DNA from: an uncultured Desulfobacteraceae bacterium
Lineage (GTDB): Bacteria; Desulfobacterota; Desulfobacteria; Desulfobacterales; Desulfatirhabdiaceae
DNA: 64,000 nucleotides
Reading direction: 5' to 3'
NCBI GenBank assembly: GCA_903953895.1
Contig: CAJBLH010000121.1
Location: forward strand, 1 to 64,000
In this document: piece by piece, positions 45,631 to 47,379 of the stretch
Position numbering within the stretch: position 1 is the stretch's first letter
Layout of the letters: the number at the start of each line of letters is the position of its first letter
The notes under the pieces: model-generated
What the model was told of the DNA's origin: nothing
Database searches by the model: none
The model's input: only the letters and a program-made list of their open reading frames with translations
Program-made: the position numbers and the translations under genes

Positions 45631-45659
45631 TTGACAAAACGTACGAATTATAGATAAAG
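45631..45659 (+). promoter_or_regulatory. candidate sigma70 promoter for the trp leader
   Basis: TTGACA at 45631-45636, then a weak -10 (GATAAA) 16 nt downstream; lies in the divergent ispE/trp gap. Confidence 0.45.
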
Positions 45660-45694
45660 TTTTAGAAAAAATAAAGGATGAAATCGAAAAACAA

Positions 45695-45763
45695 ATGATT
45701 CTATATATATCTTCAATTTTTCTTTCTGGTTATAAAGGATGGTGGCGCTGGCAAGCCAAATAA
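45695..45763 (+). CDS. trpL: trp operon leader peptide (MILYISSIFLSGYKGWWRWQAK*)
   Basis: 22 codons ending in TAA with TGG at three of the last seven sense codons (KGWWRWQAK); sits between a TTGACA promoter candidate and terminator-like hairpins upstream of trpE. Confidence 0.75.
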   Translation: MILYISSIFLSGYKGWWRWQAK

Positions 45764-45805
45764 CGGGCGCCAACGAACGCAGAACAATAAAGTGAATTTT
45801 CTTGC

Positions 45806-45843
45806 AAAAGATCGTGGGCAGCCCAAAGCCCATGATCTTTTTT
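45806..45843 (+). promoter_or_regulatory. first trp leader hairpin (terminator-like)
   Basis: AAAAGATCGTGGGC-AGCCCAAA-GCCCATGATCTTTT with a T-rich 3' side. Confidence 0.65.
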
Positions 45844-45852
45844 GTTTTCAAG

Positions 45853-45886
45853 GGGGGTCGTGGAAAACAACACGGCCCCCTTTTTT
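45853..45886 (+). terminator. second trp leader hairpin, probable attenuator terminator
   Basis: GGGGGTCGTG-GAAAACAA-CACGGCCCCC followed by TTTTTT, directly upstream of the trpE RBS. Confidence 0.8.
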
Positions 45887-45906
45887 ATTTTCAAAAAGGA
45901 GTTGTT

Positions 45907-47379
45907 ATGATTCTTCAGCAGTTCCCATCGGAAGATGATTTCAATCGAATGGCAAAAGATTTCAATGTCATTCCCCTGTGTGTTGAAATTCTGGCAGATA
46001 CCGAAACCCCGGTTTCATTGCTGCAAAAATGTCTCGATCAACAGGGCCCGGTATTTCTCTTCGAAAGCGTTGAAGGCGGTGAAAGATGGGGGCGATACAG
46101 CTTTCTGGGGTTTTCCACCCAAGCTCACATCTCGGTTTTTACCGATCGCGTGGAAATTCAGGATGATCAAGGCTCTCAGTCCTTTGCACACAACGGAAAC
46201 CCGCTCAACATCCTGAAACAGATCATGAATGGTTACCGGCCGGCAAATTATTCCGGACTTCCCAGATTCTGGGGGGGATTGGTGGGATATTTTTCCTATG
46301 AGATGGTATCGTTTTTTGAAAAGATCCCCAACCGGCTGCCCGAGAATACCCCGATTGCACAGTTTATGATTCCAGATCAACTGATGGTGTTCGACAACAT
46401 CCGACATACCCTGCTGGCGATTGCGATATCCTTTTTAAACCCCGATTCCACCCCCTCAGACCACTATCGAAAAGCGGTTGAAACTCTTCAGTCCATTGTT
46501 CAACTGGTCAAGTCCCGAATGCCGGGTGTTCCGCAGCCAATTTCACGGCCCGCATCCCCATTGCAACCATCCTGCCCGGATGAGACGTATCGCCGGCAGG
46601 TTCAACAGGTTAAATCCCATATTCAGGCCGGAGATATCATTCAGGCCGTGCTGTCCCAGAAATTCGTCTGCAACTCGCCTCCGGATATTTGGATGCTGTA
46701 TCGGGCTCAGCGATTCATCAATCCGTCACCCTATCTGTTTTTTCTCCGCATGGATGGTCAAGCCCTGATCGGCTCTTCTCCGGAAACCATGGTGCGCCTT
46801 GAAAACGGTATCGCCACCCTTCGGCCCATTGCCGGAACCCGGCCCCGCGGAAACACTGAACAGCAGGACAGGGCGCTGGCAAACGAGCTTCTTCAAGATG
46901 AAAAAGAACGGGCCGAACATCTCATGCTGGTGGATCTGGGCCGCAACGACCTGGGCCGGGTTGCAGAAACCGGCTCGGTTCAGGTGACGGATCTGATGGT
47001 GGTGGAACGCTATTCCCATGTCATGCATCTGGTATCCAACATCACCTGCGACCTGAAACCCGAACTGGATGCATGGGACTTGCTGAGAGCCACATTTCCG
47101 GCCGGAACCCTCAGCGGCGCTCCCAAAGTCCGGGCTATGGAAATTATCGACGAACTCGAGCAGGAGCCCCGCGGACCTTACGGCGGGGCTGTCGGGTATA
47201 TTTCGTTCAGCGGAAACATGGACCTGGCCATTACCATTCGAACCGCCTGCATCGCGAACGGCAAGCTGACGGTTCGCGCCGGCGCCGGTATCGTGGCGGA
47301 CTCGGATCCTGAACGCGAACGCATTGAGACCGTCAACAAAGCCAAGGCTATTGAAAAAGCCTTGCTGCTTATTGGCTGA
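45907..47379 (+). CDS. trpE: anthranilate synthase component I
   Basis: SPSPYLFFLRMDGQALIGSSPETMVRLENG-like block, RPIAGTRPRG, ATFPAGTLSGAPKVRAMEIIDELE; RBS aaggag before ATG at 45907. Confidence 0.96.
   Translation: MILQQFPSEDDFNRMAKDFNVIPLCVEILADTETPVSLLQKCLDQQGPVFLFESVEGGERWGRYSFLGFSTQAHISVFTDRVEIQDDQGSQSFAHNGNPLNILKQIMNGYRPANYSGLPRFWGGLVGYFSYEMVSFFEKIPNRLPENTPIAQFMIPDQLMVFDNIRHTLLAIAISFLNPDSTPSDHYRKAVETLQSIVQLVKSRMPGVPQPISRPASPLQPSCPDETYRRQVQQVKSHIQAGDIIQAVLSQKFVCNSPPDIWMLYRAQRFINPSPYLFFLRMDGQALIGSSPETMVRLENGIATLRPIAGTRPRGNTEQQDRALANELLQDEKERAEHLMLVDLGRNDLGRVAETGSVQVTDLMVVERYSHVMHLVSNITCDLKPELDAWDLLRATFPAGTLSGAPKVRAMEIIDELEQEPRGPYGGAVGYISFSGNMDLAITIRTACIANGKLTVRAGAGIVADSDPERERIETVNKAKAIEKALLLIG

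Follow-up and report, generated by a model that had tools for sequence, protein, structure and literature searches.

The leader of the trp operon in an uncultured Desulfobacteraceae bacterium is best read, with a probability of about 0.8, as a ribosome-mediated transcription attenuator in which a relay of alternative helices would link one tryptophan sensor to two successive intrinsic terminators. The trp attenuator is a textbook RNA switch, built from four strands and one terminator. Judged by sequence comparison, the version used by a whole bacterial lineage appears to have six strands, and in it the first decision would be relayed to terminator 2 by a selected helix between strands 4 and 5 (4:5). 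The element lies in the window, by which we mean the entire 64,000-nucleotide stretch of DNA analysed, ahead of genes in the order trpE-trpG-trpD-trpC. Its parts, in window coordinates, are as follows.

45631-45660, plus strand: promoter-like site TTGACA-18-TAAAGT, matching 10 of 12 consensus positions; putative function.
45695-45763, plus strand: trp leader peptide ORF, predicted translation MILYISSIFLSGYKGWWRWQAK (stop).
45740-45751, plus strand: control codons Trp-Trp-Arg-Trp, conserved, overlapping strand 1.
45743-45748, plus strand: strand 1 (TGGCGC), partner of strand 2 in pause hairpin 1:2 of the ribosome-free fold; weak comparative support.
45764-45776, plus strand: strand 2 (CGGGCGCCAACGA), predicted to pair with strand 3 when the Trp codons lie under a ribosome; across 69 leaders, 2:3 is conserved.
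45806-45824, plus strand: strand 3, the 5' arm and loop of terminator 1; TCGTGGGCAGCCC (45812-45824) pairs with strand 2 by folding and comparison.
45806-45843, plus strand: terminator 1 (3:4), a 14-bp stem (45806-45841) with a T-rich tail; covarying.
45828-45844, plus strand: strand 4, the 3' arm of terminator 1 with its U tract; partner of strand 3 (terminator 1) or of strand 5 (antiterminator 2), with covariation in 3:4 and 4:5.
45849-45863, plus strand: strand 5, the 5' arm of terminator 2; in masked folding it pairs over 15 bp with 45830-45844, and 98.0% of cells are paired in 49 leaders.
45850-45886, plus strand: terminator 2 (5:6), a 13-bp stem (45850-45883) with a T-rich tail.
45871-45886, plus strand: strand 6, the 3' arm of terminator 2 and its T6 tract; 5:6 stem 98.2% paired in 49 leaders.
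45896-45901, plus strand: trpE ribosome-binding site AAGGAG, from the sequence.
45907-47379, plus strand: trpE, encoding anthranilate synthase component I and opening the operon (NCBIfam trpE_most, E 8.8e-154, just under its cut-off), with trpG, trpD and trpC downstream.

The original prediction for this region placed a leader ORF with three Trp codons at 45695-45763, followed by tandem terminator-like hairpins and the trpE ribosome-binding site. The ORF is there, with TGG codons at 45740, 45743 and 45749 that spell W-W-R-W, and it is kept in relatives; AAGGAG likewise lies behind the hairpins. Both hairpins were recovered, the second starting at 45850 rather than at 45853. They are the two strong sites, and the only plus-strand ones, among five terminator-like sites found on both strands of the region, against 0.4 expected in shuffled sequence, and the whole leader folds better than 200 of 200 shuffles (z -3.5). 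A single Trp-rich ORF is present in the window leader, and none lies between the hairpins. The leader start codon has no well-placed ribosome site, AAAGGA ending about 16 nt upstream, a long spacing seen equally in several congeners. A tiny ORF, ATGAAATCGAAAAACAAATGA (window 45678-45698), overlaps this start codon (ATGA) and is missing in some congeners; translational coupling from it could compensate for the badly spaced site.

Could such an arrangement have arisen by chance? It did not, for six genomes of the same genus, and one from a second genus within the family, retain a WW(R/C)W leader along with the two hairpins. Loss of the Trp codons among relatives had been named as grounds for rejecting an attenuator; the six congeners preserve GWWRWQ and the further genus WWCW. 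TTGACA and ATTATAGATAA of the promoter-like site are also preserved among the congeners. In a wider set of 112 trpE upstream regions, drawn from the host's order plus a few loci outside it, 93 carry a leader ORF with WW or WxW, and two tandem terminators were scored in 74 of these 93; of the regions not scored as tandem, several show two terminators by eye and others one. A pair of stems, thought unusual at the outset, is so against the textbook attenuator, whereas within this lineage it is normal. The second terminator is nevertheless not indispensable, since some members are without one (for example G012, G080, G025 and G089).

Two groups of loci deserve separate mention. Hairpin 1 is intact in genomes G012, G080 and G120 (loci L159, L157 and L199), and hairpin 2 has apparently decayed, strand 5 being left while a proper strand 6 and its U tract are gone. 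Upstream of trpE at L191 (genome G043), repeated copies of AACGGCCATGGCA...TGCCACAACGAAGCATGAAA stand in place of a recognised leader.

How would one leader peptide govern two terminators? We folded nascent RNA of increasing length at equilibrium, masking bases up to 45755 for a ribosome on the Trp codons or up to 45775 for a ribosome at the stop codon. These calculations supplied the antiterminator that had earlier been left unresolved, namely strand 2 (45764-45776) paired with strand 3 (45812-45824). With the mask to 45755, 2:3 is the lowest-energy nascent fold up to the emergence of strand 4; with the mask to 45775, 2:3 is impossible and 3:4 forms, followed by 5:6. In the stalled state, once 45849-45863 has emerged, the best fold combines 2:3 with a 15-bp helix between 45830-45844 and 45849-45863. 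This 4:5 helix lasts until most of strand 6 has emerged (to 45874), after which 5:6 is thermodynamically favoured. The duplex energy of -6.4 kcal/mol obtained for window 4:5 from trimmed arms is an understatement, because the U tract and a loop-side base had been removed; masked folding gives 15 bp. The full-length RNA at equilibrium prefers 3:4 plus 5:6 under every ribosome position, so the switch would have to be kinetic. Across the population, nascent folding makes 4:5 the dominant helix in 46 of 69 leaders when the ribosome is stalled versus 18 of 69 when it is at the stop codon, a supportive result that is not uniform.

Comparison between species bears on the upstream pairings as well. 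The 2:3 helix is stronger between strands of the same leader than between strands swapped among the 69 leaders (-20.4 versus -17.2 kcal/mol, sd 0.33). A 1:2 pause hairpin had also been proposed, from the complementarity of TGGCGC (45743-45748) to GCGCCA (45767-45772). The pairing does form in the window fold without a ribosome, but its comparative signal is weak, at about 2.5 sd (-15.6 own versus -14.9 swapped kcal/mol, sd 0.29). Covariation across related trpE leaders, suggested earlier as a check, was found for 4:5 and for both terminators, 3:4 and 5:6, in an alignment of 49 leaders. The claim of a ribosome-mediated trp attenuator is thus upheld by Trp leader ORFs in 93 of 112 regions, a conserved 2:3 and covarying terminators.

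Our proposal runs as follows; termination at each site, leader translation, stalling and the order of co-transcriptional events are inferred from sequence. When Trp is plentiful, the ribosome would reach the leader stop codon and cover strand 2, allowing 3:4 to form as terminator 1. Polymerases that escape it would encounter 5:6 as terminator 2, which could form because strand 4 would be locked in 3:4 and strand 5 free. When Trp is scarce, a ribosome stalled on W-W-R-W would permit 2:3 pairing and leave strand 4 free to capture strand 5 on its emergence. The 5:6 stem would then be blocked while RNA polymerase moves past the second U tract into trpEGDC. That 4:5 prevents termination at 5:6 we infer from its position and by analogy with 2:3.

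Is the 4:5 helix selected, or is it a by-product of two similar hairpins? Both hairpins share a CCGTGG core. Copying of one from the other would preserve 4:5 and its mirror pairing, 3:6, equally well, and 3:6 can serve as an internal control. We exchanged hairpin 2 between species in 69 genomes from 41 families, aligning the hairpin cores on their 5' arms so that 4:5 complementarity played no part in the register. In this swap test, 97.1% of 4:5 cells are paired in a species' own combination versus 92.9% after swapping (z 8.7; 6.7 to 7.7 in samples of one per family), while 3:6 gives 78.4% versus 77.4%. A MAFFT alignment of 49 leaders, compared with 500 shuffles, agrees: 4:5 is paired in 98.0% of cells with 18 double-change cells and no shuffle as good, whereas 3:6 is paired in 79.3% of cells and 67 of 500 shuffles do as well. 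By family, 4:5 is the better pairing in 38 and 3:6 in one (p 1.5e-10). A recurrent signature sets an A-U pair in hairpin 1 against a G-C pair in hairpin 2, so that 4:5 becomes U-G, which pairs, and 3:6 becomes A-C, which does not; the asymmetry remains after this column is dropped. By these sequence comparisons, the 4:5 helix is under selection in three data sets and the mirror pairing 3:6 is not. The early suspicion of two-step control is supported by the 4:5 pairing, a mechanism that goes beyond what was first envisaged.

The same data weigh on a simpler account, in which a classical single attenuator (1:2, 2:3, 3:4) is followed by an independent back-up terminator that resembles the first through duplication or gene conversion. 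The shared CCGTGG core fits such an origin, as do the nearly identical cores of genomes G001 and G003, and the absence of hairpin 2 from some species would suit a mere back-up. However, duplication predicts equal retention of 4:5 and 3:6, and of the 162 cells that differ between the hairpins, 153 keep 4:5 and 74 keep 3:6; the 38-to-1 count of families points the same way. As a source of the 4:5 complementarity, copying was rejected on the 3:6 control. Moreover, an unswitched terminator 2 would block the response to starvation too, and the ilvB leaders of the order manage without a second terminator. We consider the back-up account unlikely.

A different role for hairpin 2, hiding or exposing the trpE ribosome-binding site and so acting on translation, is very improbable. 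In the window, CCUUUUU on the 3' side of the hairpin could indeed pair with AAAAAGG of the ribosome site, but the distance from hairpin 2 to trpE varies from 24 to 195 nt, with 23 of the 69 leaders above 60 nt, on which ground sequestration was rejected. The hairpin also retains its U tract, and the same hairpin precedes other genes.

Barely credible, finally, is control by another sensor (T-box, TRAP or riboswitch) with the small ORF incidental. The sole point for it is that leader translation is a prediction. Against it, the leader region matches no Rfam family at the gathering score and comes near none even at E 10; in particular, no Trp_leader match was obtained at gathering or permissive thresholds, and no T-box match. 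The residues of the leader, furthermore, suit the gene behind it, with Trp before trpE, Phe/Tyr/Trp before ADTH synthase and Phe/Tyr before pheA.

Returning to the two-terminator attenuator, what might a second, coupled terminator achieve? We tentatively suggest, at somewhat less than even odds, a proofreading step, in which 4:5 would carry over the outcome of the first decision and tRNA charging would be read twice. A ribosome that resumed before polymerase reached terminator 2 would release strand 3 to reclaim strand 4, and 5:6 would terminate. If so, a large bacterial lineage would be using a sharper, less leaky switch for its aromatic biosynthesis genes.

With the E. coli trpL-type attenuator (Rfam Trp_leader) the element shares a Trp-rich leader peptide, the alternatives 1:2, 2:3 and 3:4, and a U-tailed terminator before trpE; it differs in its two terminators linked by a conserved 4:5 and goes unrecognised by Rfam models. 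The tandem attenuators of Salmonella mgtCBR likewise place short ORFs and two regulatory steps in one leader, but there two ORFs answer two signals through hairpins unlike intrinsic terminators (PMC3641672), whereas here one ORF would drive two intrinsic terminators. The mefA/msrD double lock, proposed to curb basal expression, also has two attenuators in one operon, each with its own leader peptide and positioned before a different gene (PMC10314930). Tandem terminators, one with a potential antiterminator, occur in the gammaproteobacterial rimP-leader, for which a leader peptide is unreported and a helix joining the terminators undescribed (PMC2965389). Serial terminators are known from a deltaproteobacterial lineage too, in the tandem thiamine riboswitches (THI-elements) of Desulfovibrio, where each of the two has a separate sensor (PMC545781). 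In the mostly open-access literature searched, we found no attenuator in which one sensor drives a coupled pair of terminators; a survey of attenuators in proteobacteria from 2004 (Vitreschak et al., cited in PMC1262725) may mention one.

How far does the device extend? We built a covariance model, R1, from the paired hairpins; it describes a regulatory RNA lacking an Rfam match in the window. Of 291 genomes of the class, 258 have a match to it, frequently at several sites per genome. The host genome has a second match on contig C267 (L235, 344-510), where a Phe/Tyr/Trp-rich leader ORF, MYSSGRNYYWYFYYVNTGLPVVC, and tandem hairpins precede an ADTH synthase gene (NCBIfam TIGR01949, above cut-off). 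Masked folding of this element repeats the window pattern. The frames behind the ADTH synthase resemble, by eye from the sequence, aroB', aroE, aroA, aroK and aroC. The locus has the look of an operon for the common aromatic pathway and is a second regulon member in the genome.

Genes behind 80 strong R1 matches were classed by sequence signature: 33 elements precede ADTH synthase, six DAHP synthase and a few pheA or trpD, the remainder lying mostly before trpE. An aromatic leader ORF accompanies 77 of the 80, versus 1.8% in shuffled upstream DNA, and its residues track the gene, DAHP synthase sharing Trp with trpE. Selection on 4:5 recurs in the 33 ADTH-synthase elements (97.7% own versus 96.0% swapped, z 4.5; 3:6 82.6%); the six DAHP-synthase elements alone, too few for the test, show no 4:5 excess. 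Outside the order, 31 elements (thirty phylum matches plus DBMO01000072.1) give 95.6% own versus 92.4% swapped for 4:5, and aromatic leader ORFs accompany nearly all of them. DBMO01000072.1, from Desulfarculales bacterium UBA696 (L002), carries leader ORF MHLVSARNFWFWWLFWRGGARLTG before a DAHP synthase; in a scan of 80 named trpE loci from many phyla, it alone matched R1 strongly, any other matches being weak. Because the device appears on several aromatic pathway genes and leader residues match the gene, how leaky and how sharp attenuation is, and how it is controlled kinetically, can be tested helix by helix.

Are tandem terminators simply a habit of the clade? This was not supported, because only one terminator is present in some nine clear ilvB leaders, and in one hisG leader, of the order. 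At L359, L363, L364, L367, L375, L377 and L378, I/L/V-rich leader ORFs and one terminator (CCGTTATCAG...CTGATAACGG) lie before ilvB, and L381 has HHHHHH before hisG. Outside the order, L331 (genome G339) carries a tandem element before acetolactate synthase (ilvB), with an ORF containing ALIVI, and the device may there have spread to branched-chain control. Far from the trp operon, at positions 1-175 on the minus strand, the end of a group II intron lies at the window edge (Rfam RF02005, 76.6 bits).
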